A DNA stretch of 64,000 nucleotides. It comes from Halobacillus sp. Marseille-P3879 (GTDB lineage Bacteria; Bacillota; Bacilli; Bacillales; Halobacillaceae). The notes below the pieces were generated by a model that was not told the DNA's origin, ran no database searches, and saw only the letters and a program-made list of their open reading frames with translations. This document shows positions 33,705 to 59,992 of the stretch, piece after piece (position 1 is the stretch's first letter; each line of letters starts with the position of its first letter). The DNA lies in contig NZ_OESS01000003.1 of the NCBI RefSeq assembly GCF_900240285.1, forward strand, positions 496,001-560,000, in the 5' to 3' direction. Both the position numbers and the translations under genes were made by a program.

Positions 33705-33805
33705 GTTAGTGTTTAAGATGGGGTAAGAATCGATTTCAGATATTTTTTTACAGTTAAACCCGACTAAACAACTATGATTACAATGTGAAGTGGAGTGAGG
33801 TGGAA

Positions 33806-35629: not shown

Positions 35630-35648
35630 GGGGAAGGGGGAAGAAATC

Positions 35649-37403: not shown

Positions 37404-37471
37404 TTTACGCTCTGACATAACCGACTTTCACCAGGCATATAATGAAAGCGTGGATGAAGAGGGGGGAGTAT

Positions 37472-44630: not shown

Positions 44631-44719
44631 GCTGGGCAGCTTTTTTCTTTGATTAGAAGGTCTGCCCGTTCAAATAACGAATAGGCTTATAGAAGAAAGC
44701 GTTAGAAGGAGGAATTCAC

Positions 44720-45961
44720 GTGAGGTCTGCTCAACCGATGAAAAAGATCATCTACCTGCCCATTGAAATAAAGGCAAGAGAATTAGATGCAAAACTCTTG
44801 TTTACTTATTATGCCCTTCATAAAGGATATCGGGTAATTATCGGAGAGCAGCTTATGGTGGAAGAAGCGTCTATAATATTGGGCCCTGGGATTTTCTTTT
44901 CAAAAGGGTATTCTGAACGATATCGGAGGAGAGTGGTGACAAAAGCTCATCGAGCAAACCATACAATTGTTGAGCTTGATGAAGAAGGGTTTATATTTCA
45001 CGACCCCTCTAAGTATATAAAGGAGCGTATGAACGAAAAGATGATGCCCTTGATTGCTCAGGAGTATTGCTGGGGGCATTACCAGCAAGACACAATTGTC
45101 CAGGCTTATCCTGAGGTTGTGAATCGATGTTACCTTACCGGTAATCCACGGTTTGATTTGTTGAAGAAGAAATATCGTTCACTTTATGAAGCGAAAGCAG
45201 AAGTGTTACAGGAGCAGTATGGAGATTTTATATTAATTAACACACGTTTCGCTTTATATAACCATTTTCGAGGGAAGAACAAAACAGCAGAAGATACGGA
45301 TGCGGCAGCTTATATACAGAAGCTGTATTTCGCTTTTTTAAAAATGGTGAAAGCGTTAAGTATTCAGTTTCCCTCAGAAAAAATTGTGGTTAGGCCTCAC
45401 CCCTCAGAAGGTCTCCAGTCCTATAAAAAAGAGCTTGCTTCCTATAAGAATGTTATTGTACGAAACGATGGTTGTTCCACCGAATGGATCACGGCTTCCC
45501 GCGTTGTCATTCACAATGGATGTACGACTGGGATCGAAGCCGTACTGCTTGAGACACCGGTTATTTCTTACGTGCCTTTTGAAGACGCCAGGTATGATGT
45601 CGTACTGCCTAATTCAGCTGGTGTAAAGGCATCATCGCTTGAAGAGCTCATTTATTATGTTGAACATCCAGGAAAGAAAAAACGAACTCGCTTTCTAAAC
45701 CCTTACTATCAACAAACGCCCTATGCTCATGAAGCTATTTTGCCATTGTTAAGTGAACTGCCGGTCCCTCCATCTCCCTTTAAAAATGTTCAGGTTCCTA
45801 AAATAAGGAGAAAGCACTTTAAACATCGATTTCCCTCGTTAAAGATAGAAGAAGTCAGGGCTTTTCTTAAATCAGTGGATCAAATTGAAGGCAGAGAGTC
45901 TATCATTAGAATTAAGGAAGCCGCGACCCATTTATTTGATCTATCGATTAATGGAAGGTGA
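44720..45961 (+). CDS. Surface carbohydrate biosynthesis protein (GT-B-like)
   Basis: A 413-residue cytoplasmic protein with a GT-B-like layout. An N-half begins IYLPIEIKARELDAKLLFTY, and a C-half carries VVRPHPSEGLQSYKKE, VVIHNGCTTGIEAVLLETPV and SYVPFEDARY. The HNGCT-x-G-x-E-A pattern is that of surface-polysaccharide and teichoic-acid-type transferases. It matches the surf_polysacc family of uncertain reaction. Start GTG 44720 after aggagga. It is the first gene of the glycan locus and ends 9 bases before the next. Confidence 0.75.
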   Translation: MRSAQPMKKIIYLPIEIKARELDAKLLFTYYALHKGYRVIIGEQLMVEEASIILGPGIFFSKGYSERYRRRVVTKAHRANHTIVELDEEGFIFHDPSKYIKERMNEKMMPLIAQEYCWGHYQQDTIVQAYPEVVNRCYLTGNPRFDLLKKKYRSLYEAKAEVLQEQYGDFILINTRFALYNHFRGKNKTAEDTDAAAYIQKLYFAFLKMVKALSIQFPSEKIVVRPHPSEGLQSYKKELASYKNVIVRNDGCSTEWITASRVVIHNGCTTGIEAVLLETPVISYVPFEDARYDVVLPNSAGVKASSLEELIYYVEHPGKKKRTRFLNPYYQQTPYAHEAILPLLSELPVPPSPFKNVQVPKIRRKHFKHRFPSLKIEEVRAFLKSVDQIEGRESIIRIKEAATHLFDLSINGR

Positions 45962-45970
45962 GCAAAAGCC

Positions 45971-47332
45971 ATGAACCATTATGAAAAAAATTACTGGGCT
46001 CTTTATTTCGACTTTATTGAATTATTTTCTAAAGAAGCTCCTAAAGGCTATCCCCTTGTTCTGCTAAGCCATTTTTATGAGCATATTAAGAAAATCCCTG
46101 CTCTTCATACAGCTTTAAAAAAAGAAACATTTGAGCGTCGCTTAATTCATAGACTCGAAACGGAAGAACAGGTACAGAAATTCTTCGAAGAATATTTTCC
46201 TAATGGAGAAAGAAAGATGGTAAAAGGGAAAATAGCTCTTCATGATCATCTGCTCAGGTTTCCCCCCTCCGTTATGAACCAATTCCCTCCAGCTCATACC
46301 CTGCTGATTAAAAATAAAAGCCGCAGCAAAAAAGAGAAATCAGGAATCCCCATTCTCAGTTTAAAAGATTATGAGCAAGAGACGGAAGAAATGGAAAAAG
46401 AATATAAAGAAGCATGGTATCGGCTGTTCTCAAAGCATTCTAATCATCCGCTTATAGGGAATGCAGTTTTTAAGAAGCGGCTAATCAAGGAACTGCCACG
46501 GTTATTACAGGCTGTCTTTGCTGCAGAGTCTGTCATGCAGAAAGAAAAGTTGAATGTCCTGGTGCTTGGGACTACGAATTCTTGTGAAAGCCGTGCACTG
46601 GCGCTGTCAGCGAGAAAGTATGGAATTCCTTCTGTATGTATGCAGCACGGAATTATAGGTCTGGAATTCGGCTATTTACCTAAAGCGGCTGATTACCTGG
46701 CTGTTTACGGACATTACGAGCTTGACTGGTATATAAGAAAAGGAATCCCTGCTGATGAAATAAGAATAACGGGGCATCCAAGATTTGACGAAATTAAGAA
46801 TCAAAAGACGGCACCACTCTCTAAGCTCGGTTTCAATCCTCGTAAAGCAACCATATTATTCATCCATCATCATGAGGAAGTCAGCGTGCCAAGAGCCATT
46901 ATTCAAAGCTTGACTGAGTACGACACGTTTCAGCTTATAGTAAAAGCCCGCGGTAATCCAAAAGAGATCACAAAACTACAAAAAATGTATCCTTCAGTCC
47001 AGTTGAGTGCCGGGATTGGTTTATATGATTTGATTGCAGCTGCAGATATAGTGGTCAGTTATCCCTCGACAGTAGTTTTAGAATCATTGATCGCAAACAA
47101 ACCTGTTTTTATATGGAATATTCCAGGTGAACCGCTGCCGGCCTGCTTTGACTCTTTACAAGAAATGGTCCATGATCATCCTGTAACTTTAGTAAAACAC
47201 ATCCTTCATCACTTCAGGGAAAAAAAGGGGATAATAAAAACAGAGTTCCTTGCCAGGCATTATCCTCTGGAGCTACAGCAGAAAAAATCTACGGATGTTC
47301 TGCTGAAGTTGATTAATGACTTAAAAAGCTGA
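45971..47332 (+). CDS. GT-B-like surface glycan protein, paralogue 1
   Basis: A 453-residue protein that shares its whole plan with the gene at 51409: NHYEKNYWALYFDFIELF at the start, IPSVCMQHGIIGLEFGYLP, a GHPRFDE motif and VSYPSTVVLESLIANKPVF at the C-end. The QHG-II and PST-VLE motifs are those of glycosyl- or glycerophosphotransferases of the capsule/teichoic type. Reaction unknown. Start ATG after gaaggtgag, 9 bases after the upstream gene. A terminator follows. Confidence 0.75.
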   Translation: MNHYEKNYWALYFDFIELFSKEAPKGYPLVLLSHFYEHIKKIPALHTALKKETFERRLIHRLETEEQVQKFFEEYFPNGERKMVKGKIALHDHLLRFPPSVMNQFPPAHTLLIKNKSRSKKEKSGIPILSLKDYEQETEEMEKEYKEAWYRLFSKHSNHPLIGNAVFKKRLIKELPRLLQAVFAAESVMQKEKLNVLVLGTTNSCESRALALSARKYGIPSVCMQHGIIGLEFGYLPKAADYLAVYGHYELDWYIRKGIPADEIRITGHPRFDEIKNQKTAPLSKLGFNPRKATILFIHHHEEVSVPRAIIQSLTEYDTFQLIVKARGNPKEITKLQKMYPSVQLSAGIGLYDLIAAADIVVSYPSTVVLESLIANKPVFIWNIPGEPLPACFDSLQEMVHDHPVTLVKHILHHFREKKGIIKTEFLARHYPLELQQKKSTDVLLKLINDLKS

Positions 47333-47357
47333 ACCATCAGGTGGTCAGCTTTTTTAA
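47323..47357 (+). terminator. Terminator between the glycan gene and cysC
   Basis: Arms aaaaagctgaacc and ggtcagctttttt around atcaggt. The stop codon lies within the arm. It faces the convergent cysC. Confidence 0.72.
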
Positions 47358-47399
47358 GTCTGTTGCCTAGATTATCCCACTGCCTATCGGGGAGCACGT

Positions 47400-47999
47400 T
47401 TACTCTATTCCTTTCAGTTTAGATAATAAATATTGTGTCAACTGATGGACTGATTTCTCGATGGGCTGCTCTGTAGTATTTATTGTTATTTCTGGATCTG
47501 AAGGTTCCTCATACAATTGAGATATACCGGTGAAGTTTTTAATTTCTCCATTTCGGGCTTTTTCGTAAAGGCCTTTAGGGTCTCTTCTCTCACATTCTTC
47601 AAGCGTACATTTTACATACACTTCAATAAATTCTTCTTCTTTAAACCGTTGTCGTGCTGCTTCTCGGTCCTCCTTGTAAGGAGATATGGCGGCAGCAAAA
47701 ACGACAATCCCGCTGTCAACGAACAGCTTGCCGATTTCTGAAATTCTTCGGATGTTTTCTTTTCGATCTTCCTCACTAAAGCCTAAATTATGGTTAATGC
47801 CATGACGCAGATTGTCTCCGTCAAGCAAAAATGTATGGATGCCTTCTTTAAACAGCTGATGCTCGACGAGATTGGCAATCGTCGATTTGCCTGAGCCTGA
47901 CAATCCTGTAAGCCAGACGATTAAACTTTTATGACCATTTCTTTTCTGTCTGTCTTCCTTAGATAATAATGGTTTATGCCACTTAATGTGTTTATTCAC
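47400..47999 (-). CDS. cysC: Adenylylsulfate (APS) kinase
   Basis: A 199-residue kinase that phosphorylates adenosine 5'-phosphosulfate to PAPS, the sulfate donor for sulfotransferases and assimilation. It has the P-loop GLSGSGKST (residues 32-40), [34 protein letters not shown] and the [11 protein letters not shown] lid. The start is GTG 47999 after gggggtga on the minus strand. It lies 5 bases after the SLC13-type carrier in the same direction, so one operon. It converges with a glycan gene and sits beside a sulfotransferase, so it probably makes PAPS for glycan sulfation. No sulfurylase is in the window. Confidence 0.94.
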
Positions 48000-48004
48000 T
48001 TTTT

Positions 48005-49243
48005 TCACCCCCAAATAAATAATGCGAGTCCCACTGTACAAACGGCGCAGAGAATACTCAGTCCGATTCCAGCTCTGATGAAATCTTTAAATCGATAACC
48101 CCCCGGTTCAAAAATAATGACATTGGTTTGGTAGCCGATCGGAGTAATAAAACTGCAGGATGCAGAAATGGCAATTACGATTGCAAACATTTTTGGATCT
48201 GCTTCGACCAGGTCTGCCATTGACTGACCAATGGGAAACATAAGGACCGCTGCCGCAATGTTGTGGGATATTTCTGTAAGAATCATCGTAGCTAAATAGA
48301 GAAGCAATATGACCCCCGCTAATCCGATGAATGGGTAAAGGTCCATAAAAGCGGTAGTGAGCAGCTTCGTAATTCCGGATTTTTCAATGGCAGTGCCAAT
48401 TCCAATTGCAGAAGCCATGAGTAGTAAGACGTTCCCGTTGACTGCTTTTCTTGCCTCAGAAGGGCGGATTACTTTAGTAACTAGTAAAATGATGACTCCT
48501 GCTAAAGCGGCTTTTACAAGAGAGGTGAGATGAAAAGCGACGGAGCCAATCATAATGGTGATTACGAGGAACACGATCCCTGTTTGGCATTTTGTTAAGG
48601 GGACTTCGCTTTGAGCTTTCTGCCGCTGGTTACCAGGGGTACGGTCTGGAAGTAATAAGGAACCTATAAGACTCACATAAACCACTCCTAATAGAGTGAG
48701 AGGAATTCCGATTAAGGAAAATTCGAAAACTGTAAATCCAGGGTGCCCTTCTTCTATTAAAAGTCCATGAATAATCAAGTTTGTGGAAGAACCATATAGC
48801 GTGATAGAACCTCCTAGAATCGCTGCATAAGACAAAGGAATGAGCAGCTTAGAAGGTGGGACCTGATTGTTTCCTGCCCAATTGGTTATTGAAGGTGTAA
48901 GCATTGATACGATCGGTGTATTATTCATAATTCCTGACAGTATGGCAACTGGCGACATAATTTTTAATAAGAGAACAGGCTGCTTATCCTCCCGGTTCAG
49001 ACATTGTTGAAGCAAGGAAATAAGAATACCGCTTTTAAATACGCTGTATCCAATAATAAAAAGTAGGGCAATTGTAATGACGCTAGTGTTGGCAAATCCT
49101 CGAAAGGCTTCTTCAGGAGTAATGACTCCAGTCAGCAGGAATACGGACAGAGTAACAAACATGGTGAGATCGGGAGGGGCCCATTGTTTAATGAGTACAA
49201 CAAACATGCCTGTTAGGAGCAGGGTTACAATAACGATGTCCAT
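48005..49243 (-). CDS. SLC13/DASS-type anion transporter (probable sulfate permease)
   Basis: A 412-residue, eleven- to twelve-helix carrier. It has the paired Asn motifs of the DASS/ArsB fold ([16 protein letters not shown] and [16 protein letters not shown]) and [12 protein letters not shown] and [17 protein letters not shown] near the substrate site. It lacks the TrkA-C domains found in longer sulfate permeases of this family. Being 5 bases upstream of cysC points to sulfate. ATG 49243 has gagggtga ten bases upstream on the minus strand. It is divergent from the sulfotransferase gene. Confidence 0.87.
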
Positions 49244-49424
49244 CCCGCATGATTCACCCTCTTTTCTATTCAATTATGAATACTATATGCCGCATTTCGT
49301 CGATGGTTATGAAAATGGTTGATTGTATTAAGTCTAGCTGGCTCTATTCCCCACACATAATAGGGGAGCGCAGATTATAATATCATAGCCGTAACGCTGA
49401 ATAAGAAGGGGAAGGAAGAGACAA

Positions 49425-50144
49425 GTGATTCATTTTAATAAGGAGAAACTAGACCTGGAAAAGTTGGTCTGTTTTTTGCATATTCCTAAGTCAGGTGGCA
49501 AGACGATGTGGAATATCTTAGCGGCTCAGGAGGAAGAAATACTCGTATGGCATGGCAAACATTTTAAAAAATTAAAGAAGCAGCCTGTTTTTTTTACAAT
49601 GCTTCGAGATCCTGTAGAACGGGTGATTTCGACATTTTACTATATTAAGAGCTACGAACGGGATCCCTTACATGAACAGGTAAAAGATATGAGTTTTGAA
49701 GAATTTTTGACTTATATGAAAGCTGATGGAATAGGAAATAAACAATATCACAAAAGAGATATTCGCAGTATCCGCTATCGGACAGTTAATTTGGCGACTC
49801 GCTATTTATCGGGCGGAGATCCGGAGGGGTTAAAGAAAGCCAATGCTCATTTAAAGAAGTACTTTAAAGAGGTTGGGTTAACAGAGAGATTTAGTGAATC
49901 TCTATTTTTTATAAAAAAATATTTTGGCTGGCACGACATTAAGATTGAACATTTGAATATTACACAGAATCGCCCAAAAGCACAGGACATCCCCCCTCAC
50001 ATTATTAAAGAAATAAAAAGACTCAACAATAATGATATTGCTTTATATAAACAAGCCAGAAAAAAATTTGAAGCTCGTCTGAGCAACTTGGATGAACAGC
50101 AGAAAATAGAGTTACAGGAATGGAAGAGGAAAGCAGGGGTGTAG
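49425..50144 (+). CDS. PAPS-dependent sulfotransferase family protein
   Basis: A 239-residue cytoplasmic protein of the sulfotransferase family. The 5'-phosphosulfate loop is HIPKSGGKTMW (residues 19-29), close to the eukaryotic carbohydrate-sulfotransferase pattern. The 3'-phosphate site is LRDPVERVISTFYY (Arg61, Ser69). A basic C-terminal helix follows. It would transfer sulfate from PAPS to a sugar hydroxyl or amine. Start GTG 49425. It lies between the APS kinase/carrier operon and the nonulosonate genes, so the acceptor is probably the glycan made here; that is inference. Such genes are unusual in Bacillaceae glycan loci. Confidence 0.85.
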   Translation: MIHFNKEKLDLEKLVCFLHIPKSGGKTMWNILAAQEEEILVWHGKHFKKLKKQPVFFTMLRDPVERVISTFYYIKSYERDPLHEQVKDMSFEEFLTYMKADGIGNKQYHKRDIRSIRYRTVNLATRYLSGGDPEGLKKANAHLKKYFKEVGLTERFSESLFFIKKYFGWHDIKIEHLNITQNRPKAQDIPPHIIKEIKRLNNNDIALYKQARKKFEARLSNLDEQQKIELQEWKRKAGV

Positions 50145-50355
50145 GCGGTCTAACCTGCCCCTGCTTCCGTCTATCCGCATTTGTTTCATATTTTTTTGAT
50201 TTAAACATAAAACCATACCAATTCCAGCAGAGTGCATACTATAAAAGAGGTGTAGAGGCCTGGTATTCATCACTATTTTATTAGATTAATAGAACCCGTA
50301 AGGCACTCTTCCATATGATGAAAAGAAGAGATTAGAAAGGAAAGAAGGAGCTAAT

Positions 50356-51354
50356 GTGTATTTCAAAGACAAACGTATTCTAGTTATTGGAGGAACGGGA
50401 ACGATTGGGAAAAGTATCGTCCGCTATGTACTTGAAGACGACCCGGCTGAAATTATCATATTCAGCCGTGATGAATATAAACAGTTTCAAATGCAGCATG
50501 AATGGGATCAACAGGCTAACCTCACATTTGTACTAGGAGATGTCCGTGACTATGACAGAGTTTCGCATGCAATGAAAGGCGTTGATTACGTGTTTCACTT
50601 AGCTGCGATGAAACATGTAGCTTCCTGTGAAACCAACCCTCAGGAAGCCATCCTTACTAATGTAAAAGGCACGTATCATGTAATTAACGCCGCTTTAGCT
50701 CACGAAGTTGAAAAAGTGGTGTTTACAAGTTCTGATAAAGCTATTTCGCCTACCAATACTTATGGGGCCACGAAGCTGATCGCTGAAAGGTTGATGACGG
50801 CGACTGAACTGAGAAAAGGAAAATCGAAAACGATCTTCTCCAGTGTTCGCTTTGGCAATGTAATTGGTTCACGTGGTTCTGTGATTCCATTGTTTAAGAA
50901 ACAAATTATTGAACAGCAGAGAATTACAGTTACAGATTCACAAATGACTCGCTTCATGATGACTCTTACTCAAGCCACCGAGCTGACGATCCAGGCATTA
51001 AAGGAATCAAAGGGCGGAGAAGTTTTTGTTTTAAAGATGCCTGTTATCTTATTGGGAGATTTGGCTTCTTTAGTGATTGAAGAGACTTGTAGAACCGAGC
51101 AAATGAATGAAAATAATGTAACTATCCGGGAGATTGGTCTACGTCCTGGAGAAAAAATGTATGAAGAGCTGATGACGTTTGATGAATCCCTGACAGCCCT
51201 CGAGCTGCCGGATATGTATGTACTGCCGGGCAATAACAAAAGCAGCTATCCAGGTGCAAGGCAGGCCCAGAACAAAACTTACAGCTCCATTGATCAAACG
51301 CCTATCTCTTATAAAGAGCTTAGAAAGTTATTAAAAAATGAAAACATCATTTAG
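50356..51354 (+). CDS. pseB: UDP-GlcNAc 4,6-dehydratase family enzyme (PseB/CapD type)
   Basis: A 332-residue SDR of the Polysacc_synt_2 group: GGTGTIGKSIVRYVL at the N-terminus, AAMKHVASCETNPQEAILTN, SSDKAISPTNTYGATKLIAE with the active-site Tyr-x3-Lys, and SVRFGNVIGSRGSVIPLF. PseB enzymes remove water from UDP-GlcNAc with C5 inversion, the first step to pseudaminic acid; CapD and FlaA1 are close relatives. The C-terminal GLRPGEKMYEEL is family-typical. Start GTG 50356 after aaggag. With the PseC, F, G/H and I-like genes downstream it would complete the pathway. The precise sugar is not proven. Confidence 0.83.
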   Translation: MYFKDKRILVIGGTGTIGKSIVRYVLEDDPAEIIIFSRDEYKQFQMQHEWDQQANLTFVLGDVRDYDRVSHAMKGVDYVFHLAAMKHVASCETNPQEAILTNVKGTYHVINAALAHEVEKVVFTSSDKAISPTNTYGATKLIAERLMTATELRKGKSKTIFSSVRFGNVIGSRGSVIPLFKKQIIEQQRITVTDSQMTRFMMTLTQATELTIQALKESKGGEVFVLKMPVILLGDLASLVIEETCRTEQMNENNVTIREIGLRPGEKMYEELMTFDESLTALELPDMYVLPGNNKSSYPGARQAQNKTYSSIDQTPISYKELRKLLKNENII

Positions 51355-51408
51355 AACTTTATTAAAGAAAGCTAAGTTACAGGATACCCACGGAAAGGAG
51401 GGAGTAAA

Positions 51409-52851
51409 TTGAATACGTACGAACGAAATTACTGGTCGCTTTATTTAGATTTTCTGGACCGCTTTGAAGAGCTGAAGTACAAAGGTATATCCCTGCCTTA
51501 CCTTTGTCACTATCGAAGTTTAATTAAATATGCACCTTTAATGAAAAGGCTGGACCAGGATGCATTTACCCTGCTTTTAAAGAACAAGGTAGAAAGCAAT
51601 GCTGACGTACAGGCGCGGTTTAATCGCTTCATTAAAAAACACACCAATAAAAACAAGTCAAAAAATAATAAGGGGAAGATCGTAATTCACGATGTTTACA
51701 ATTTGATTCGATTTCCTACACCCGTTCTCATGAAATACTTCTCTCCATCTTCCACTATGATTATTAAAGATAGAAAAAACCCTCCTAAAGAAAAAGGGTA
51801 TGTCAGAAAAGAGAAAGATGGAAACATCCCCGTTCACTATTTCGATGAATTCACTAACGATTCAAGCTCAGTATCTGCAGCAGTTAAGGTCATTCAATCA
51901 CAGGCGAAGAAAATTTTTAAATCACTTCCTAACCATCCATTGTACAGTGATCCTAAGTTCCGTAAAGTTTTCTTAATGCAGCTTAAAAAAATTATTCACC
52001 GCGTAGAACAAGCAAACAAACTATTCCGAAGTGAGACAGTGTCCTGTATAGTGGTGGCTTCTACTCATTATCCTGAAAGCCGCACCCTTTCCATAGTAGC
52101 TGCCAAAAAGGGAATTCCAACGGTTTGCATGCAGCATGGAATTATTTCAAGTGAGTTCGGCTATTTACCGAAAATAGCCACAGTTGATGCCGTGTATGGT
52201 ACGTTTGAGAAGGTATGGTATAAGCAGAAGGGCATTGAAGATAGTGCTGTTGAAGTCATTGGCCATCCGCGGTTCGATCAAATATTTTTAAACAAACCAA
52301 TCGGTCACGGTGAATTTGTAAGACAGCTTGGACTTGAGCCGGCAAAAAAAACTGTGTTAGTAGTCGTTAGGGGAAATAAGGACCTCCCCCGGTGGAGAAA
52401 GCTCGTTGAAGCATTAGCTAAAGATGAGAAATTTAATATACTCATTAAAGATTTTCCCAGTTCTCAGCCCCATCAACTGACGATTGATGTACCTCAGGCG
52501 CTTCCTTCTCAAAACCTTCACCTGTACGACCTCCTGCACCACGTAGACGCGGTTGTAGTATATTCATCTACAGTAGGGCTGGAAGCGATGCTTGCAGGCA
52601 AGCCGGTTTTTATATTAAATGAAGAATTTCCAGGTTATACAGGATATTATTATGGATTAAGCGGGCTGACACACAATAACCCTGTTAAGCTGGCTGAGAT
52701 CGTCCAACGTTATTTTAATGAAGATACGATGAAAACTTATGAAAAAAAGATAAGGGAAAAGTTTTTGTCCTCCGCCTATGATACCCAGCAGCTATCAGGT
52801 AATCGATTAATGCGTTTGATAGACCAACTGACAAATGAAGATGAGACATAA
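51409..52851 (+). CDS. GT-B-like surface glycan protein, paralogue 2
   Basis: A 480-residue paralogue of the gene at 45971. Shared elements are NTYERNYWSLYLDFLDRF, IPTVCMQHGIISSEFGYLP, VEVIGHPRFDQ and VVVYSSTVGLEAMLAGKPVF. It differs by a Lys-rich insertion (KKHTNKNKSKNNKGK, about residues 78-92). Start TTG 51409 after aaaggaggg. The C-terminus ends in D-E-T-stop, supplied by repeat copy C, as in the YqjF gene. The original end has probably been replaced. Likely a transferase of the surface polymer. Confidence 0.75.
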   Translation: MNTYERNYWSLYLDFLDRFEELKYKGISLPYLCHYRSLIKYAPLMKRLDQDAFTLLLKNKVESNADVQARFNRFIKKHTNKNKSKNNKGKIVIHDVYNLIRFPTPVLMKYFSPSSTMIIKDRKNPPKEKGYVRKEKDGNIPVHYFDEFTNDSSSVSAAVKVIQSQAKKIFKSLPNHPLYSDPKFRKVFLMQLKKIIHRVEQANKLFRSETVSCIVVASTHYPESRTLSIVAAKKGIPTVCMQHGIISSEFGYLPKIATVDAVYGTFEKVWYKQKGIEDSAVEVIGHPRFDQIFLNKPIGHGEFVRQLGLEPAKKTVLVVVRGNKDLPRWRKLVEALAKDEKFNILIKDFPSSQPHQLTIDVPQALPSQNLHLYDLLHHVDAVVVYSSTVGLEAMLAGKPVFILNEEFPGYTGYYYGLSGLTHNNPVKLAEIVQRYFNEDTMKTYEKKIREKFLSSAYDTQQLSGNRLMRLIDQLTNEDET

Positions 52852-53136
52852 GTCCAGCAATGACAGAAAAAAAACGAACGATAAAAACTGAATAATATAT
52901 ACGCAGAGCATTAGCGTAGTCAAAATGCGTAGACTCCTGTGGGAACAGCACGAGGCGAAGATCCCGCAGGAAAGCGTTCTTTGTTTTCCGAGGAAGCTTA
53001 AGGCCGTGCCCACTTAAAAGCGAAGTATTTTGACGGAGCGATGGTGTGAATTCTCTTTCACATAAATAATCCGAACTGATTTCTACAAAATCATTCGGAT
53101 TATTTTATGCTTTATTCAGTTTTGCCCAACCTCTTT
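52840..53136 (+). repeat. Structured dispersed repeat, copy C
   Basis: About 297 bp, the most complete copy. It begins gatgagacataagtcc and contains cattagcgtagtcaaaat with an inverted partner (aagtattttgacggagcg). It also has a hairpin cctgtggga/tcccgcagg and the aataatccgaa/ttcggattatt hairpin extended by tgattt/aaatca (53066-53104), then ends in cccaacctctttt. It supplies the final codons and stop of the upstream glycan gene. Confidence 0.85.
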
Positions 53137-53226
53137 TTGAGTTGGGTCTCTTTTTTGTTCTTATGAATATTCTTTCTTCCTTTTTAATAGGATTGGTCTG
53201 AAGGGATAAAAGAAGGGGATGATGAG

Positions 53227-54171
53227 GTGAATGTACTTGTAACTGGAGGGGCAGGATTTATCGGAAGGTGGGTGGTTAAGAAGCTACTTGATGACGGGCA
53301 CTGCGTGTGGGTGCTGGATGATCTATCAAATGGCCGAATTGAAAATGTCGACGAATTTTTAAGCCGTAAAAATTTCAAAGAGTTCATTCAAGGTGATATT
53401 AAAGATGTTCTTCTGCTGAAAGATCTTTTTTTGAAGCCTTTTGACTGTTGTTATCATTTAGGAGCAAGCATAAACGTACAGGATAGTATTGATGATCCTC
53501 AGACGACTTTTGATAATGACACTGTCGGTACTTTTAACGTTTTAGAGGAATGTAAGAAACATAATGTTAAGCTGGTGTTCATGAGTACGTGCATGGTGTA
53601 TGACCGTGCAGCATCTCCTGCAGGCATTAAGGAAACAGACCCTGTAAAACCGGCTTCGCCTTATGCTGGAGCCAAAATAGCAGCAGAAAATATGGTCCTT
53701 TCCTACTTCTTTGCCTATGGTATGCCGACAACCGTCGTCCGCCCGTTCAATACGTACGGCCCTTTTCAGAAGACGGGAGGGGAAGGCGGGGTAGTTGCTA
53801 TCTTTATAAAAAATAAACTGGAAGGAAAATCACTTCAAATCTATGGGGACGGTACCCAAACGAGGGACTTGTTGTATGTAGAAGATTGTGCTCGTTTCGT
53901 CGTCGAAGCAGGGTACTCTGACAAGGCTGACGGAGAAATACTAAATGCAGGACTTGGTCGTGATATTTCAATTAATGATTTAGCGAGCTTAATTATTAAA
54001 GATGTGAACAAAATCAAGCATGTCACTCATATCCACCCTCAAAGTGAAATTCAGAAACTCCTTTGTAATTATGATAAGGCAGAAAAACTATTGGGATGGA
54101 AGCCCCTGTATAGTTTAGAAAATGGGATTACACGGACAGAAGAGTGGATTAAGTCCACGAATTTGATTTAA
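53227..54171 (+). CDS. NAD-dependent epimerase/dehydratase, extended SDR
   Basis: A 314-residue sugar-nucleotide enzyme. It has LVTGGAGFIGRWVVKKLL, the acidic end of strand 2 (VLDDLSNG), STCMVYD (Ser/Thr), SPYAGAKIAAE with Tyr-x3-Lys, and VVRPFNTYGPFQ. It resembles UDP-hexose 4-epimerases or dTDP/UDP 4,6-dehydratases but the exact reaction is not clear. It could provide a second sugar of the glycan, or act in the nonulosonate route. GTG 53227 after aagggga; its stop is 13 bases before the aminotransferase start. Confidence 0.85.
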   Translation: MNVLVTGGAGFIGRWVVKKLLDDGHCVWVLDDLSNGRIENVDEFLSRKNFKEFIQGDIKDVLLLKDLFLKPFDCCYHLGASINVQDSIDDPQTTFDNDTVGTFNVLEECKKHNVKLVFMSTCMVYDRAASPAGIKETDPVKPASPYAGAKIAAENMVLSYFFAYGMPTTVVRPFNTYGPFQKTGGEGGVVAIFIKNKLEGKSLQIYGDGTQTRDLLYVEDCARFVVEAGYSDKADGEILNAGLGRDISINDLASLIIKDVNKIKHVTHIHPQSEIQKLLCNYDKAEKLLGWKPLYSLENGITRTEEWIKSTNLI

Positions 54172-54184
54172 TGAGGGATTCATC

Positions 54185-55381
54185 ATGACGAAGAAGTTAG
54201 CAGTGCATGGGGGTAAGCCAGTAAGAGAAAGCTATCTCCCTTATGGAAGGCAGTCGATTGATGAAGAAGATATTAAGAAGGTCGTGAAAGTTTTAAAAAG
54301 TGATTATCTTACCACTGGTCCTGAGATTGATAAGTTTGAACAAAAGATCAGCGATTATGTCGGAGCAAACTACAGTGTGGCCTTTTCGAGCGGAACTGCT
54401 GCCCTCCATGCGGCTTGTTTTGCAGCAGGCGTGAAGAAAAATGATGAAGTGATCACTACACCGATGACTTTTCTTGCGAGTGCCAACTGTGCGCTGTACA
54501 TGGGTGCTATGCCTGTATTTGCAGATATTGATGCCAATACTTACAACATTTCTCCAACTTCCATCCAGTCACTGATTACGGAGAAGACAAAGGCTATTAT
54601 TCCTGTAGATTTTACTGGTCAGCCGGCTGCTTACGATGACATTCTCTCTATTGCAAAGGCTCGTAACATACCTGTAATTGAGGATGCTGCCCATGCATTA
54701 GGGGCGCGTTACAAAGGAAGGGACGTAGGGTCGCTGTGTGATATGACGATGTTTAGCTTCCATCCGGTGAAACATATAACAGCGGGAGAAGGCGGAGTAA
54801 TCACCACCAATCGAAAAGATTATTATGAGAAACTCATTCAATTTAGAAACCATGGGATGACCCGTAAAGTAGAGCAGTTCAGCGGAATATCTCACGGGCC
54901 GTGGTATTACGAAATGCAGACATTAGGATTTAACTACCGCATGACAGACCTGCAGGCGGCTTTAGGTCATAGTCAGCTCAACAAATTAGACCACTTTATA
55001 GCAAAAAGAAAAAAATACGCCGATATGTATAATAAAGCTTTTGAGGATGTCGGCGAGGTAATTCGTCCTATGATGAAATCAGGCTGTGATTCAAGCTGGC
55101 ATTTATATATTCTTCGTTTAAAGCTCGACCAGCTCACAGGCACCCGAAAAGACGTGTTTGAAGCCTTAACAGAGGAAAACATCGGAGTGAATGTCCATTA
55201 TATCCCGGTATACTGGCAGCCATACTATCAGCAGGCCGGCTATGAAAGAGGACTTTGTTCGGTAGCTGAGGAAGTTTACGAGGAAATCATTACACTTCCA
55301 TTATTTCCATCTATGACGAAATCTGATGTAAAAGATGTGATTAAAGCAGTGAAAAAAGTAATCTCTCATTATGCGGGGTGA
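54185..55381 (+). CDS. pseC: PLP sugar aminotransferase (PseC/DegT type)
   Basis: A 398-residue DegT/DnrJ/EryC1 aminotransferase. PSYFxxGTAALH-type SGTAALHAACFA, IPVIEDAAHALGARYKGRDVG (Asp contacting PLP), and FSFHPVKHITAGEGGVITTN with the Schiff-base Lys are present. The last pattern is typical of PseC, which aminates the 4-keto sugar made by PseB. Start ATG follows gagggattc. The next gene overlaps its end region. Other DegT reactions (e.g. WecE-like) are possible. Confidence 0.88.
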   Translation: MTKKLAVHGGKPVRESYLPYGRQSIDEEDIKKVVKVLKSDYLTTGPEIDKFEQKISDYVGANYSVAFSSGTAALHAACFAAGVKKNDEVITTPMTFLASANCALYMGAMPVFADIDANTYNISPTSIQSLITEKTKAIIPVDFTGQPAAYDDILSIAKARNIPVIEDAAHALGARYKGRDVGSLCDMTMFSFHPVKHITAGEGGVITTNRKDYYEKLIQFRNHGMTRKVEQFSGISHGPWYYEMQTLGFNYRMTDLQAALGHSQLNKLDHFIAKRKKYADMYNKAFEDVGEVIRPMMKSGCDSSWHLYILRLKLDQLTGTRKDVFEALTEENIGVNVHYIPVYWQPYYQQAGYERGLCSVAEEVYEEIITLPLFPSMTKSDVKDVIKAVKKVISHYAG

Positions 55382-55385
55382 TGGT

Positions 55386-56117
55386 ATGAAGGTAGCAGCA
55401 ATTATTCAGGCGCGGATGGGTTCAACCCGTCTGCCTGGAAAGGTGCTAAAGAAAGTACTCGACCGGCCATTGCTTGACTTTCAATTAGAAAGAGTACGTC
55501 GATCAGCCCTGATTGATGAAGTGATTATTGCAACGACTAATAAATCGAATGATGATATTCTTGATCAATTCGCCGCGGACCGTTCTGTACCAGTATATCG
55601 CGGTTCTGAAGAGGATGTTCTCAGCCGGTACTTTGAAGCCGCACAGCTGTACCACGCAGATGTGGTTGTCCGCCTGACCTCCGACTGCCCCTTAATTGAT
55701 CCAGCGGTGATAGATTCGATCATAAATCATTACACACGATCCAAAGGGAAATACTGTTACGTATCTAATACTTTATCACGTACATTTCCAAGAGGAATGG
55801 ACACCGAGGTGCTGTCCATGGCTGCGTTAAAACACTGTAATGAAAAAGCGAAAAACCCGTCAGAGCGCGAGCATGTCACAGGTTATATTCACCATCATTT
55901 AGGGGAGTTTTCGACGTTTAATATAAATTATAAAAGAGACGAAAGCCATCATCGCTGGACGGTGGATACCCCTGAAGATTTTCAATTGGTTAAGAGAATG
56001 ATCAATTGTTTGTATCCATCGAAACCAGATTTCACTATAGAAGATGCTCTGGAGATTGTTAAACGAAACCCGGAGTGGGCCCTTATTAATAGTCACATCG
56101 ATCAAAAAAAATCGTGA
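55386..56117 (+). CDS. pseF: Cytidylyltransferase-type glycan protein (SpsF/PseF)
   Basis: A 243-residue GT-A-like nucleotidyltransferase of the SpsF family. IIQARMGSTRLPGKVL is the nucleotide-binding loop, and VRLTSDCPLIDP carries the metal Asp. FPRGMDTEVLS and HHRWTVDTPEDFQLV follow. B. subtilis SpsF and PseF of pseudaminic loci activate nonulosonic acid with CTP. The start is ATG 55386 after cggggtga; a longer in-frame start (55371) overlaps the aminotransferase. Four bases separate it from the previous gene. Confidence 0.85.
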   Translation: MKVAAIIQARMGSTRLPGKVLKKVLDRPLLDFQLERVRRSALIDEVIIATTNKSNDDILDQFAADRSVPVYRGSEEDVLSRYFEAAQLYHADVVVRLTSDCPLIDPAVIDSIINHYTRSKGKYCYVSNTLSRTFPRGMDTEVLSMAALKHCNEKAKNPSEREHVTGYIHHHLGEFSTFNINYKRDESHHRWTVDTPEDFQLVKRMINCLYPSKPDFTIEDALEIVKRNPEWALINSHIDQKKS

Positions 56118-56131
56118 GAGTGTGAAGGTGA

Positions 56132-57805
56132 GTGGAAGTCGTTATACGAACGGACGCGTCGGTTGAAATAGGATCAGGCCATGTAATGAGGTGCTTAACA
56201 CTGGCTGACCAGTTAAGAAGAAAGGGGGCTGGTGTTTCATTTATATGCCGGCTTTTACGAGGAAATATGATTCAGCAGATACAAGATAACGGCTTCCGCG
56301 TGTATACGCTGCCCTCCCCTGTAGAAGAGCATTTTAATAAAGACCGTTCTATTCCTTATTCTTCCTGGCTGGAAGTAGATTGGAAGACTGACTGCAAACA
56401 TACGTCAGCTTTATTGGAGAAGTATATTAAGGCTGATTGGCTGGTTGTAGACCATTATGCAATTGGTGAAAAGTGGGAGCGTTCTATAAGGAATTATACT
56501 GACCGGATTATGGTCATAGATGATCTGGCTGATCGAGTCCATGATTGTGATCTGCTGGTTGATCAAAATTTATACAAAAACTACCATCACCGTTATCAAG
56601 ACTTAGTGCCCGGACATACAGTGAAATTACTAGGGCCAAAATATATGCTCGTACGCGATGAATTTATTAATGCTAAAACCAGGGCCATCAGCCGTAATGG
56701 AATAGTGAAACGTCTGCTCGTTTCGTTTGGCGGGACTGATCCTACGAATGAGACACAGAAAGTATTAGCTGCGATCAGACGGTTAAATCGAAAAGATTTA
56801 ATGGTGGATGTGGTAGTTGGATCAAGCAACCCGAGAAAAAATGAAGTCAAGCAAATGTGTGAGTCGATGCCAGGGTGTAATTTTTACTGTCAAATTAATA
56901 ACATGGCCGACCTCATGCAGAAAGCTGATCTCGCTTTTGGAGCAGGCGGGACATCAACGTGGGAGCGTTGTTATTTAGGTTTGCCTGCCATTACCATTCA
57001 AACCGCTTCTAATCAATCTGGTATTCTATCATACATGGCTGAGAAGGGAGCTCTGGTTTGTCTGGGATCGAGTAAAAATGTCGCGGAAGAAGATATCGTC
57101 TCTACCTTATCATCTTTTTTGCAGCAGCCAATCCGCGTAAAGGAGATGGCAGAATCCGCGTGGAATGTGGTTCAAGGGGTCGAGGAAGGATCGGTGGTCC
57201 GCTGCATGCTGGAGGGAGCTGGAATGATTGATGTCCACCATTTTGAGTTAAGAGACTTAGAAAAGAAAGATCTTCCTGCTGTTCTCAAATGGAGAAATTC
57301 AGAAGCCATTCGTGAGGCGATGTATACAGATCATAAAATAACAATGGAAGAGCATGAGCGTTGGTACAACAAGGTGAGCAGTGGTCAAAATACTATGGTG
57401 AAACTGCTCTATTATAAAAATCAGCCGATAGGACTCGTTAACTTTTCCAGGATTGATCACCATCATCGTAAGTGCTATTGGGGTTTTTATATTGGAGAGA
57501 GCTCTGCACCTAAAGGATCAGGCACGGTGCTCGGGCTGCTGGCTCTAGAGTTTATTTTTGAAGAGCAATCTATGCACAAACTATGTGCCGAAGTACTTGT
57601 TTCCAATAAAAGAAGCTTTCAATTTCATAAAAAGCTCGGATTTATGGAAGAAGGACGATTCATTAATCACACCTTAAAGAACGGAAAGTATATGGATGTT
57701 ATCCCGATGGCGCATTTTAAAGACGCATGGCCTGAAGCGAAAAAAGGGATTATCCAGGCATTAGGAGGCGGAGGGCATGAACAGCATTCTTCTTCAAAAA
57801 CGTAA
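56132..57805 (+). CDS. PseG-PseH fusion: UDP-sugar hydrolase plus GNAT N-acetyltransferase
   Basis: A 557-residue two-domain protein. Residues 1-360 are PseG/SpsG-like: RTDASVEIGSGHVMRCLTLA with the catalytic His17, VVDHYAIGEKWERSIR, LLVSFGGTDPTNETQKVL and FGAGGTSTWERCYLGLPAIT. Residues about 372-535 are a GNAT domain (ELRDLEKKDLPAVLKWRNS, GSGTVLGLLALEFIF, NKRSFQFHKKLGFMEEGRF) like PseH. PseH acetylates the 4-amino sugar and PseG then removes UDP, so the fusion joins consecutive steps. Start GTG 56132. The next gene overlaps its end by 29 bases. Confidence 0.9.
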   Translation: MEVVIRTDASVEIGSGHVMRCLTLADQLRRKGAGVSFICRLLRGNMIQQIQDNGFRVYTLPSPVEEHFNKDRSIPYSSWLEVDWKTDCKHTSALLEKYIKADWLVVDHYAIGEKWERSIRNYTDRIMVIDDLADRVHDCDLLVDQNLYKNYHHRYQDLVPGHTVKLLGPKYMLVRDEFINAKTRAISRNGIVKRLLVSFGGTDPTNETQKVLAAIRRLNRKDLMVDVVVGSSNPRKNEVKQMCESMPGCNFYCQINNMADLMQKADLAFGAGGTSTWERCYLGLPAITIQTASNQSGILSYMAEKGALVCLGSSKNVAEEDIVSTLSSFLQQPIRVKEMAESAWNVVQGVEEGSVVRCMLEGAGMIDVHHFELRDLEKKDLPAVLKWRNSEAIREAMYTDHKITMEEHERWYNKVSSGQNTMVKLLYYKNQPIGLVNFSRIDHHHRKCYWGFYIGESSAPKGSGTVLGLLALEFIFEEQSMHKLCAEVLVSNKRSFQFHKKLGFMEEGRFINHTLKNGKYMDVIPMAHFKDAWPEAKKGIIQALGGGGHEQHSSSKT

Positions 57806-58826
57806 GGTTGGAATTGACGCTCCGCCTTTCATCATTGCGGAAATGTCAGGGAATCATAATCAATCGCTAAACCGTGCCATACAGATTGTGGAGGCTGCTG
57901 CAAAAGCGGGGGCTCATGCTTTAAAGCTGCAAACCTATACAGCCGATACGATGACTTTAAACCTGTCACGCAGCGATTTTGTTATCAGTGGCGATCGTCA
58001 ATGGAAAGATCAGTCTCTCTATCAGTTATACCAAAAGGCCTGCACTCCCTGGGAATGGCACGAACCTATTTTTAAGAGGTGCCGGGAGCTCGGAATGTTG
58101 GCATTCAGCTCTCCTTTTGATGAAACAGCAGTAGATTTTCTTGAGCAGTTAAACGTCCCGTGTTATAAGATAGCTTCATTTGAAAATACCGATTTACCCC
58201 TTATTAAAAGGGTGGCTCAAACCGGGAAGCCGATGATTATATCGACAGGATTAGCCAGTGCTGCAGAGGTGGACGAAGCGGTAAGAGCGGCAAAGGCAGA
58301 AGGGTGCCATGATCTAATTTTACTTAAATGTACAAGTACGTATCCCGCTTCCCCTGAACATACGAATATCCGAACCATCCCTCACATGAAGGACCTGTTT
58401 CAATGCCAGGTGGGCTTATCCGACCATACGTTAGGGACAGGAGCAGCCGTTGCCAGTGTGGCGTTAGGTGCCACTGTTATCGAGAAGCATTTTACTCTTT
58501 CACGGGCAGATGGCGGGGTGGACGCTGCCTTTTCTATGGAGCCGGATGAATTTAAATCACTGGTGGACGAAACAAAAAGAGCATGGCAGGCGCTTGGAGA
58601 GATTACTTACGGTCCTACTAAAAGTGAAGTTTCTTCCCAAAAATACCGGCGTTCCCTATATGTAGTGAAAGATATGAAAAAAGGAGAAACTTTTTCTAAA
58701 AGTAACGTAAAGGCGATTCGTCCAGGTTACGGCCTTCCGCCTAAATATCTTGAAATACTGATAGGGAAAACGGCTGGTCAAACAATAAAAGCAGGAACCC
58801 CTTTATCGTGGGATTTACTAAGTTGA
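57777..58826 (+). CDS. pseI: Nonulosonic acid synthase (PseI/NeuB/SpsE type)
   Basis: A 349-residue enzyme of the NeuB family, condensing PEP with a 6-carbon sugar to make a nine-carbon acid. The barrel has FIIAEMSGNHNQSLNRA, KLQTYTADTMTL, YKIASFENTDLPLI and LSDHTLGTGAAVASVALGA with the metal His. A C-terminal SAF (antifreeze-like) domain (YVVKDMKKGETFSKSNVKAI) closes it. EMSGNHNQ is seen in pseudaminic-type synthases. Start ATG after cggagggc overlaps the PseG-PseH end. A terminator follows. The specific acid (Pse or related) cannot be fixed from sequence. Confidence 0.9.
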   Translation: MNSILLQKRKVGIDAPPFIIAEMSGNHNQSLNRAIQIVEAAAKAGAHALKLQTYTADTMTLNLSRSDFVISGDRQWKDQSLYQLYQKACTPWEWHEPIFKRCRELGMLAFSSPFDETAVDFLEQLNVPCYKIASFENTDLPLIKRVAQTGKPMIISTGLASAAEVDEAVRAAKAEGCHDLILLKCTSTYPASPEHTNIRTIPHMKDLFQCQVGLSDHTLGTGAAVASVALGATVIEKHFTLSRADGGVDAAFSMEPDEFKSLVDETKRAWQALGEITYGPTKSEVSSQKYRRSLYVVKDMKKGETFSKSNVKAIRPGYGLPPKYLEILIGKTAGQTIKAGTPLSWDLLS

Positions 58827-58837
58827 TTGAATAAAAA

Positions 58838-58882
58838 GAAAAAGAGAAAGCATATTGCTTCCTCTTTTTCATAGATTTTTTT
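58838..58882 (+). terminator. Terminator after the nonulosonate operon
   Basis: Arms gaaaaagag-aagca and tgctt-ctctttttc, then a T7 run. It faces the convergent Cys-rich gene. Confidence 0.78.
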
Positions 58883-59522
58883 ATTCTCCACCGTTACCGT
58901 TGCCGTTGTTAGGGAATACCACTGGGCATTGTGGCGGTCTAACAGGAGACGGGCAAGGAGTAGGAAGAATGTCTCTAGGCTCACAGAATTCAGTAACTAG
59001 TTCAACTGTAACAGGGAACGTAGACTGAATGCTTTGACAAAGATTAACATTGATTGAAGCATCAAATGTTGGATCTGTATCAGTGTCACCAGGGTCACAG
59101 TCAAATGTACATACGAAACAGTCAGAGTCTGTGTATGTCACATCAATTTCTGTCCCTGCTGGAGCACAGAGCACTACTTGTTCACAGCGGGAGAAATCCA
59201 ATTCTACTTCTTCGTCGCCGTTTGTAGTAGTAGGGATTGTAAGAGTTACTGTGAAGTTTTTACGGATATTGACTAACTGTAAAGTTGTTTCAATACCGTC
59301 GATGATGAATGTGCGATCCTCACGAGTCAAAATGTCGACGTCTTCAGGAGTAACTGTACAAGTTACCTCTGCAGGATCAAAATCATCACAGTCCAACCCT
59401 TCTGGTAAATCTTCATCGACAATATTAATATCGAAAGAAGCCTCATTTACCACCCAATCGTAAACCTTATCTACATTGACACAAAGTAGTTCTTGACCAC
59501 CGCTTAAATTTTTTGCTTGCAT
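58881..59522 (-). CDS. Cys- and Asp-rich possible spore-surface protein
   Basis: A 213-residue acidic protein with about ten cysteines. LCVNVDKVYDWVVNEASFDI comes near the start, strand-rich Thr/Val segments follow (FTVTLTIPTTTNG, EIDVTYTDSDCFVC), and a Pro-rich tail ends it (PTPCPSPVRPPQCPVVFPNNGNGN). There is no signal peptide. Cys-rich, low-complexity, cytoplasm-made proteins of this kind often become spore-coat or exosporium parts. No family is recognised with confidence. A strong ggaggtg precedes ATG 59522. It converges with the nonulosonate operon. Confidence 0.7.
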   Translation of the reverse strand: MQAKNLSGGQELLCVNVDKVYDWVVNEASFDINIVDEDLPEGLDCDDFDPAEVTCTVTPEDVDILTREDRTFIIDGIETTLQLVNIRKNFTVTLTIPTTTNGDEEVELDFSRCEQVVLCAPAGTEIDVTYTDSDCFVCTFDCDPGDTDTDPTFDASINVNLCQSIQSTFPVTVELVTEFCEPRDILPTPCPSPVRPPQCPVVFPNNGNGNGGE

Positions 59523-59940
59523 CTAATAAGCACCTCCGGATTATAAGATATGTTACACTCGTAGCATATGTTTGCACTTGCAGGATGGTATAGTGATTGC
59601 GCATAGATTTTAAAATTTATTAAATAAATTTGAACGGGCATTTCATATAGTTTATTTGATATTTTCTTCAGCGGCCGAAATGATTTTTTCTAGTAAAGTT
59701 AATCGAGAACGATCGCTGAACCACCTTTTTTATATCTATGTAACTCAGCATGTCCTTGCTCACAAAGAATTCAATTAGAATTAACCTTTAAGATTTAAAA
59801 AACTTCTCTTGTCAAAGGGAAAGCCAGTCGGACCGAAATTTCGACCGTCCTATTGCCTTTTTTAATGACATTTCGCTTTTTGAGCAGGTACTTATGGAGA
59901 CTTCTTGAGGGGGAACTTCCACCTGTAGATAGGAGCAGTA
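59523..59940. other. Gene-free stretch
   Basis: About 420 bases upstream of the Cys-rich gene and downstream of sodC. It has a short cgaaatttcg palindrome in gaccgaaatttcgacc (59832-59847). I see no other folded element or frame. Confidence 0.45.
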
Positions 59941-59986
59941 AAAAAGCTTGCAGAGAAACCAGGGTTCCTCTGCAAGCTGAATTTTT
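59941..59986 (-). terminator. Terminator of sodC (bidirectional)
   Basis: 11-bp perfect stem agcttgcagag / ctctgcaagct. On the minus strand it is followed by ttttt; T-run also on the plus side. Confidence 0.82.
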
Positions 59987-59992
59987 CTATTA

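Follow-up and report, generated by a model that had tools for sequence, protein, structure and literature searches.

A nonulosonate locus of Halobacillus with its own APS kinase, anion carrier and putative sulfotransferase points to a probable sulfated spore glycan

The 64,000-nucleotide stretch of Halobacillus sp. Marseille-P3879 analysed here (contig NZ_OESS01000003.1, positions 496,001 to 560,000 of the forward strand; hereafter the window) carries a surface-glycan locus in which genes for nonulosonic acid synthesis stand beside an adenosine 5'-phosphosulfate (APS) kinase gene, cysC, an SLC13-type anion carrier gene and a putative sulfotransferase gene dependent on 3'-phosphoadenosine 5'-phosphosulfate (PAPS). 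The locus probably builds a nonulosonate-containing glycan of the spore surface, which would be sulfated through a PAPS supply timed to sporulation. A first-pass annotation, made from the letters alone, had named the APS kinase, the SLC13 carrier, the sulfotransferase, a Pse-like set and three GT-B-like proteins; all are in place and have hidden Markov model (HMM) matches, and the spacing of 5 bases between carrier and cysC is confirmed (Table 1). It had listed neither the additional SDR gene at 53227-54171, the spore coat gene at 58881-59522 and cysJI, nor the lack of ATP sulfurylase in the locus.

Table 1. Genes and promoter-like motifs of the locus, in window coordinates
Feature	Position	Strand	Evidence
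SpsB-like GT-B surface-carbohydrate protein	44720..45961	+	TIGR04396 7e-103, 345 bits; NF046086 (BFO_1060 glycosyltransferase) 2e-23, below cut-off
GT-B-like putative glycosyltransferase	45971..47332	+	weak PF02350 3e-4, NF046086 5e-6, both below cut-off; 57% identity to Halobacillus sp. A5 counterpart
APS kinase (CysC), sulfation-type paralogue	47400..47999	-	TIGR00455 7e-80, 267 bits vs cut-off 138.7; tree placement with sulfotransferase-linked CysCs
SLC13/DASS anion carrier, presumed sulfate permease	48005..49243	-	PF03600 1e-52; PF00939 3e-14; TIGR00785 3e-32, below cut-off (112 vs 199 bits)
Sigma-K-like promoter motif before SLC13-cysC unit	49281..49307	-	pattern scan
PAPS-dependent carbohydrate sulfotransferase (putative), heparan-sulfate 6-O/2-O-sulfotransferase-like	49425..50144	+	PF03567 1e-8, 36 vs 22 bits; 239 aa
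Sigma-K-like promoter motif before PseB-led gene run	50217..50243	+	pattern scan
PseB/SpsM-like UDP-GlcNAc 4,6-dehydratase	50356..51354	+	PF02719 2e-102; PseB TIGR03589 313.7 bits, below cut-off 407.8
GT-B-like putative glycosyltransferase	51409..52851	+	PF05159 3e-6; NF046086 6e-10, below cut-off
Short-chain dehydrogenase/reductase (SDR) nucleotide-sugar epimerase/dehydratase	53227..54171	+	PF01370 5e-58; LegB/RmlB/GalE-like, all below cut-off
PseC-type aminotransferase	54185..55381	+	TIGR03588 494.5 vs 423.5
SpsF/PseF-like CMP-nonulosonate cytidylyltransferase	55371..56117	+	PF02348 1e-35; PseF match 36 vs 206 bits, below cut-off
Fused PseG hydrolase - PseH acetyltransferase	56132..57805	+	TIGR03590 318 vs 153.6; TIGR03585 132.6 vs 93.1
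PseI/SpsE-type nonulosonate synthase	57777..58826	+	TIGR03586 519.8 vs 340.3
BMQ_0737-family morphogenetic spore coat protein, convergent	58881..59522	-	NF052457 193.8 vs 71 bits
Two overlapping sigma-K-like matches before coat gene	59544..59589	-	pattern scan

The biosynthetic genes include the members of an Sps-type pathway: PseB-, PseC-, PseG-, PseH- and PseI-like proteins and a cytidylyltransferase, the PseB-like protein scoring below cut-off and the PseF-like one being recognized by Pfam. PseC, PseG, PseH and PseI pass the pseudaminic equivalog cut-offs; the PseB-like and PseF-like proteins fail them. By these cut-offs the product is predicted to be a nonulosonate-containing glycan of pseudaminic type. 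The acid may be pseudaminic (Pse) or legionaminic (Leg), because the PseB-like protein is below cut-off and the Leg pathway of Bacillus subtilis (PMC7439481) has the same outline.

The sulfotransferase has the eukaryotic heparan sulfate 6-O- and 2-O-sulfotransferases (HS6ST, HS2ST; 5t03, 4ndz, 3f5f) as its closest solved relatives by both profile and fold. A profile of six homologues matches HS6ST3 (5t03) at 3e-14 and HS2ST (4ndz/3f5f) at about 1e-4. Foldseek, run with a model of moderate quality (predicted local distance difference test score 73.6; residues 1-23 under 50), returns HS6ST/HS2ST structures in all top 7 places, with a best E of 4e-3 and none below E 0.001. Unlike these enzymes, the window protein is bacterial; it has 239 aa and shares ~15-17% identity with them over the aligned part. 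The six aligned sulfotransferases conserve P-K-[ST]-G-G near the N-terminus and R-[DN]-P-[VI]-[DE]-R-V-[ILV]-S further along, which we take to be the two PAPS-binding motifs. CysC matches many solved APS kinases. The nearest solved relatives of the SLC13 carrier are VcINDY and then SLC13A1; its gene company suggests sulfate as the substrate. A longer open reading frame with a TTG start exists for the carrier (48005-49273, minus strand), the ATG at 49243 being the likelier start from a ribosome-binding site read by eye. SLC13 carriers of Halobacillus and Thalassobacillus have ~420 aa; those of cassettes in other families (L063, L066, L070, L071, L073, L081) have ~580 aa, with an insert, lacking in the former, that splits the match to the window carrier.

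Sulfotransferase homologues occur in 11 of 101 relatives and, by profile search (E <= 1e-10), in 32 of 397 genomes of the order. The first-pass annotation had proposed a search of related genomes for linkage of the cysC-SLC13 pair, the sulfotransferase and nonulosonate genes, and such linkage is found across genera. Halobacillus sp. A5 and two Thalassobacillus devorans genomes (L017-L019) have an SLC13-cysC-sat unit (sat, ATP sulfurylase gene) that is divergent from the sulfotransferase gene and accompanied by a coat gene and spsB/pse genes; PseI lies 18 kb from the cassette in the two T. devorans genomes. Family f2 (L058-L060) has cysC-sat divergent from the sulfotransferase, together with pse and coat genes: the coat gene, sulfotransferase, cysC-sat and PseI fit into ~5 kb in two genomes, and the third has the same order, with the coat gene clipped by the contig end. 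In family f8 (L024/L026), the sulfotransferase and pse genes are found with cysC-sat 8-9 kb away, and no coat gene is seen in the stretch fetched from the two genomes. In Halalkalibacter alkalisediminis (L081), where several genes of the locus are fragmented, a shortened sulfotransferase match (164 of 239 residues) lies within the pse operon, between the SDR and SpsF genes, with SLC13-cysC-sat beyond. The coat homologue near L017-L019 and L058-L060 is of the BMQ_0737 family, as in the window. Because the arrangement recurs in other genera, it is not a matter of chance. In 21 of 36 enzyme-bearing genomes, cysC/sat lies within 20 kb of the PF03567-type enzyme (chance estimate ~2% per site). An over-cut-off PseI lies within the same distance in 12 of the 36, among them all six genomes of the window's family that have the sulfotransferase; in 9 of these 12, cysC/sat too lies no more than 20 kb from the sulfotransferase.

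ATP sulfurylase is present at the locus in L017-L019, L024, L026, L058-L060 and L081 (in L024 it is clipped by the locus end, with a full match in the genome-wide sat search) and absent from it in the window. The gap between cysC and the following gene is only 67 bp here, at the place where Halobacillus sp. A5 carries sat, so sat has probably been lost in this genome. The first-pass description of the system as self-contained is wrong for this genome, because ATP sulfurylase is missing from the locus, though relatives keep it there. The 4.17 Mb genome has, 84 kb from the locus, a separate assimilation operon, cysH-cysP-sat-cysC, with SUMT/CobA- and SirB-like genes (all names but cysC, sat and cysH are taken from translations); its sat lies at C7:626824, and the sole cysH match of the genome at C7:624615. 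Since this operon is present elsewhere, the window cysC is a second copy. The locus has a second APS kinase apart from assimilation and a PAPS sulfotransferase (PF03567) among pse genes, as a dedicated sulfation set should, and lacks the PAPS reductase gene cysH that marks an assimilation operon. A lone second sat stands on contig C9 (C9:1143629) and belongs in the Sat tree to the type found in Sulfotransfer_3 cassettes. This gene (L077 8653-9771, G000:C9) is 90% identical to the sat of a Sulfotransfer_3 cassette in L103, from the same genus, and looks like a remnant of such a cassette.

To place the cassette among other cysC/sat genes, cysC, sat, cysH, Sulfotransfer_3 and Sulfotransfer_2 were listed in 67 genomes, a non-random sample of 36 picked for having the sulfotransferase and 31 listed without it; two sulfotransferase positions (G234:C27:288, G290:C59:7909) come from the homologue profile search of the order, not from the Sulfotransfer_2 search. 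At 20 kb, 50 of the 106 cysC/sat clusters have cysH nearby, 36 have a sulfotransferase, 0 have both and 20 have neither; the same counts are 50/29/0/27 at 10 kb and 51/38/0/17 at 40 kb. The first-pass annotation had named a pattern that would speak against its proposal: cysC staying with assimilation genes rather than with the sulfotransferase. The counts do not show this pattern, no cluster lying near both cysH and a sulfotransferase. Eight genomes have cysC and sat and no TIGR00434 cysH (E <= 1e-20). PF01507 has no match at E <= 0.001 in G127, G050, G245 and G421, where cysC, sat and a sulfotransferase are present; its matches in G340, G095 and G044 are distant members only, and in G320 a strong member adjoins a fused CysN/CysC-length frame and is, by our own reading, probably CysD. 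With no PAPS reductase detected, PAPS is barred from assimilation by the known route in such genomes.

Phylogeny points the same way. The CysC and Sat trees come from quick searches of 63 and 55 fetched rows and have several weak forks. The window CysC falls into a clade of 4 sulfotransferase-linked rows, apart from its assimilation paralogue, and this clade sits in a 16-row group (support 80) without assimilation rows. The assimilation label changes 4 times on the CysC tree against 19.0 after shuffling, and 2 times against 14.9 on the Sat tree. Exceptions on the CysC tree are three Sulfotransfer_2 rows of family f2, outside the window group, and four (L069-L072) among Sulfotransfer_3 and assimilation rows. 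The extra cysC genes of G006 and G008 were considered as cassette copies and rejected; they are cysH-cysP-cysC assimilation units.

The link to spores comes from the coat gene and from promoter-like motifs. A paper title credits BMQ_0737 with a crucial role in the outermost layers of the B. megaterium spore. In B. subtilis, sps genes are under sigma-K and spore Leg is made in the mother cell (PMC7439481). The sigma-K-like pattern used here is AC-N16-18-CATANNNTA; this and all other sigma patterns follow general consensus sequences. All four matches in 44600-59800 lie in 5' intergenic DNA facing SLC13, the PseB run or the coat gene. The SLC13 motif keeps its distance (32-34 bp) in L017, L018, L019 and L020; the coat gene has two motifs in L017, one each in L018 and L019, and none in L058 and L059. 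Of 98 upstream regions taken from 12 loci, 16 contain the motif, with 1.16 expected from shuffles. Strict sigma-E, sigma-G and sigma-A patterns have 0 matches in the locus; a loose sigma-E pattern has 9 (0.59 vs 0.43 per kb elsewhere).

Lead genes of nonulosonate-linked cassettes have the motif in 9 of 11 cases, against 3 of 36 others (Fisher 8e-6); related cassettes are not independent, and collapsing kin leaves 5 of 7 nonulosonate-linked lineages with it. The others comprise 1 of 13 remaining Sulfotransfer_2-linked cassettes, 0 of 13 Sulfotransfer_3-linked ones, 2 of 7 unclassified and 0 of 3 assimilation operons (L016, L075 and L076 only, since 7 clipped loci without true upstream DNA were excluded). 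One CysC-fragment row of L081 was dropped, L115 was put in the pse-linked group, and L020, where SLC13 has the motif and cysC is missing, belongs to neither group. G209, with PseI 31 kb from the cassette and no motif, was counted as not pse-linked; otherwise the figures are 9 of 12 against 3 of 35. These motifs may reflect sigma-K control of the cassette.

In the proposed mechanism, the mother cell would express the dedicated SLC13-cysC unit under sigma-K late in sporulation. The carrier would import sulfate, and the sulfation-type CysC would convert APS to PAPS. In relatives the unit carries its own ATP sulfurylase; with sat gone, the window genome would draw APS from another sat, either C7:626824 or the lone C9:1143629. 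PseB-I-type enzymes would produce CMP-nonulosonate, SpsB-like GT-B enzymes would assemble the glycan, and the heparan-sulfate-sulfotransferase-like enzyme would transfer the sulfuryl group from PAPS to a sugar hydroxyl. The acceptor sugar, the spore location and any enzymatic activity are predictions from gene content. The gene families, their linkage, the CysC lineage, the promoter-like motifs and the absence of sat are read directly from the DNA. The earlier proposal of a dedicated PAPS supply and transfer for a nonulosonate-containing polymer of the surface or spore has good support from linkage, reductase-less genomes, CysC lineage and sigma-K-like motifs. We lean, on balance, towards a broader, joint proposition: that cysC/sat paralogues of Bacillales form two classes, one for assimilation (found with cysH) and one for sulfation (found with sulfotransferases), and that endospores of several Bacillales lineages bear a sulfated nonulosonate glycan made by a sigma-K-timed programme with its own carrier, ATP sulfurylase and an APS kinase diverged from the assimilation enzymes.

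Several observations weigh against a sulfated spore glycan, beginning with the missing ATP sulfurylase. The system is patchy, the sulfotransferase being found in 2 of 11 genus-g1 genomes listed. G014 and G020 have this enzyme with PseI and without linked cysC/sat (in G020 SLC13 is kept, cysC is not), and in G209 the genes are 38 kb apart. Close homologues in G134 (L061 9557-10267) and G304 (L062) have neither cysC/sat nor PseI within 20 kb; the neighbours in G134 are AraC-type regulators and a PhnE-like permease. The motif evidence is uneven as well. Motif density is 0.26 per kb in the locus and 0.22 in 1-44600 (4 matches in 15.2 kb and 10 in 44.6 kb), hardly raised, so only the placing of the motifs stands out. 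The PseB-like gene has the motif in the window and L017, 2 of 10 examined, and no SpsB-like gene examined has it upstream. The pse-linked L081 (Halalkalibacter) and L115 are motif-less; L117 and L120, near neither cysH nor a sulfotransferase, have it. None of 12 loci has a strict sigma-K match upstream of the sulfotransferase, and there an element CCCACAC...TTATAATA is common to the window and L017-L019. Matches with one mismatch (3 of 12 loci) were considered as a sigma-K site for this gene and found unconvincing. The sulfotransferases of G134 and G304 appear as orphan enzymes.

Among other explanations, it is possible, if unlikely, that sulfation is real and its acceptor is a protein, a lipid or a glycan of the spore or cell other than the nonulosonate polymer. 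The acceptor is not readable from the sequence of an HS6ST/HS2ST-like enzyme, more distant homologues have other sugar genes around them and lack PseI within 20 kb (G245, G406), and the neighbourhood of the close homologue in G134 is not a glycan one. The recurrent PseI linkage, which includes every enzyme-bearing genome of the window's family, argues for the nonulosonate polymer, as does the L081 gene embedded in its pse operon.

Pse and Leg glycans are commonly flagellar or capsular, and the glycan might therefore be one of vegetative cells (capsule, S-layer or flagellar glycan) without a special spore role. The sulfotransferase without a strict sigma-K motif and the rarity of the motif in Sulfotransfer_2-linked cassettes without PseI nearby and in Sulfotransfer_3-linked ones would fit. 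This is unlikely given the lead-gene motif of the pse-linked cassettes, the placing of the remaining locus motifs before the PseB run and the coat gene, and the presence of the coat gene close to the locus in Halobacillus, Thalassobacillus and family f2.

It is improbable that sat loss has left the sulfation module of this genome dead or leaky, a decaying copy: the 67-bp gap would agree with decay, but the reading frames of the module genes are open, the promoter-like motifs are retained, and two other sat genes exist, the C9 one of a type seen in other sulfation cassettes. That the cysC-SLC13 pair is a second assimilation unit, beside the sulfotransferase by accident, is very improbable and largely refuted by comparison: cysJI lies ~10 kb away in the window (33785-37361, named from translations without HMM) and the sole cysC/sat set of G005 and G007 is sat-SLC13-cysC ~7.5 kb from cysH, but the locus lacks cysH and sat, the assimilation operon sits elsewhere, clusters near both cysH and a sulfotransferase do not occur, genomes without detected PAPS reductase keep the cassette, and the CysC tree and the sigma-K-like promoter type disagree with it.

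Each half of the proposed system is known. PMC7439481 describes the B. subtilis sps/legionaminic crust pathway, in which the mother cell makes a nonulosonate via PseB-like SpsM and then SpsC, D, G, E and F; shared with the Halobacillus locus are a TagB-domain SpsB and, as predicted for Halobacillus, sigma-K control and a product on the spore surface. The Halobacillus locus differs in its fused PseG-PseH, in PseC/G/H/I over pseudaminic cut-offs and in a built-in sulfate activation and transfer set; in the text of that paper, "sulf" occurs once only, for a sugar assay. The polysaccharide clusters described for a Vibrio sp., strain KMM 8419 (PMC11641403), and for Cobetia marina KMM 1449 (PMC11766843) combine PAPS-synthesis genes with sulfotransferases, as the Halobacillus locus does. 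The PAPS genes of the Vibrio strain are second copies, the Cobetia cluster also has a sulfate permease and CysQ, and PMC11641403 terms such a combination a hallmark of sulfated polysaccharide synthesis. These are ABC-exported capsules with CysD/CysN-type sulfurylase and Rha/Glc or Rha/Man nucleotide sugars, in hosts without sporulation; in contrast, the Halobacillus-type system has single-chain Sat/CysC, an SLC13 carrier, a nonulosonate and a spore context.

In the open-access literature, most subscription papers being outside its scope, neither the union of spore nonulosonate, dedicated PAPS genes and sporulation-type motifs nor sulfated glycans on spores were found. Few sulfated glycans have, to our knowledge, been described in Gram-positive bacteria. 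Rhizobial NodPQ-NodH provides dedicated sulfate activation and a sulfotransferase, apart from assimilation, for a lipochitooligosaccharide signal; it is like the Halobacillus system in dedicated activation and unlike it in enzyme families, hosts and product. If real, a sulfated crust would alter the charge and hydration of spores, their adhesion and the way lectins or phages bind them. The locus offers a testable gene set and a source of HS6ST-like bacterial sulfotransferases, and a cysC/sat paralogue by a sulfotransferase, away from cysH, may serve as a rule for finding sulfated-glycan producers among Bacillales.

Other loci resemble the cassette in part. L103 4284-16162 (G004, same genus) has two Sulfotransfer_3 genes, UDP-glucose/GDP-mannose dehydrogenase, a heparinase II/III-like protein and a glycosyltransferase, followed by sat-SLC13-cysC and an inositol-phosphatase-family gene resembling CysQ, which suggests a second kind of sulfation locus, for a sulfated uronate polysaccharide. 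L102 and L104-L112 share the order sat-SLC13-cysC and have a Sulfotransfer_3 gene within 20 kb (neighbours were identified for L103 only). In L115 2204-15057 (G044), PseI is preceded by genes for a polysaccharide pyruvyl transferase and a flippase-like protein and followed by sat-SLC13-cysC and a CysQ-like gene; no Sulfotransfer_2 or Sulfotransfer_3 gene was found in this genome, and the locus may hold an unrecognised sulfotransferase.

Elsewhere in the window, 37442-38566 encodes a polysaccharide pyruvyl transferase, a split homologue of which lies beside the sulfotransferase in L021, and 38586-39311 a protein of 241 aa that matches nothing in NCBIfam or Pfam; a sigma-K-like match (38542) lies just upstream of the latter. 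An origin from a mobile element or foreign DNA was considered and set aside, there being no clear GC jump, no tRNA in the window and no Rfam match in 44000-60000. A dispersed repeat lies at 52932-52952, inside the 375-bp gap between the third GT-B-like gene and the SDR gene, and occurs at 27 places in the genome (<=3 mismatches), against 0 for a reversed control.

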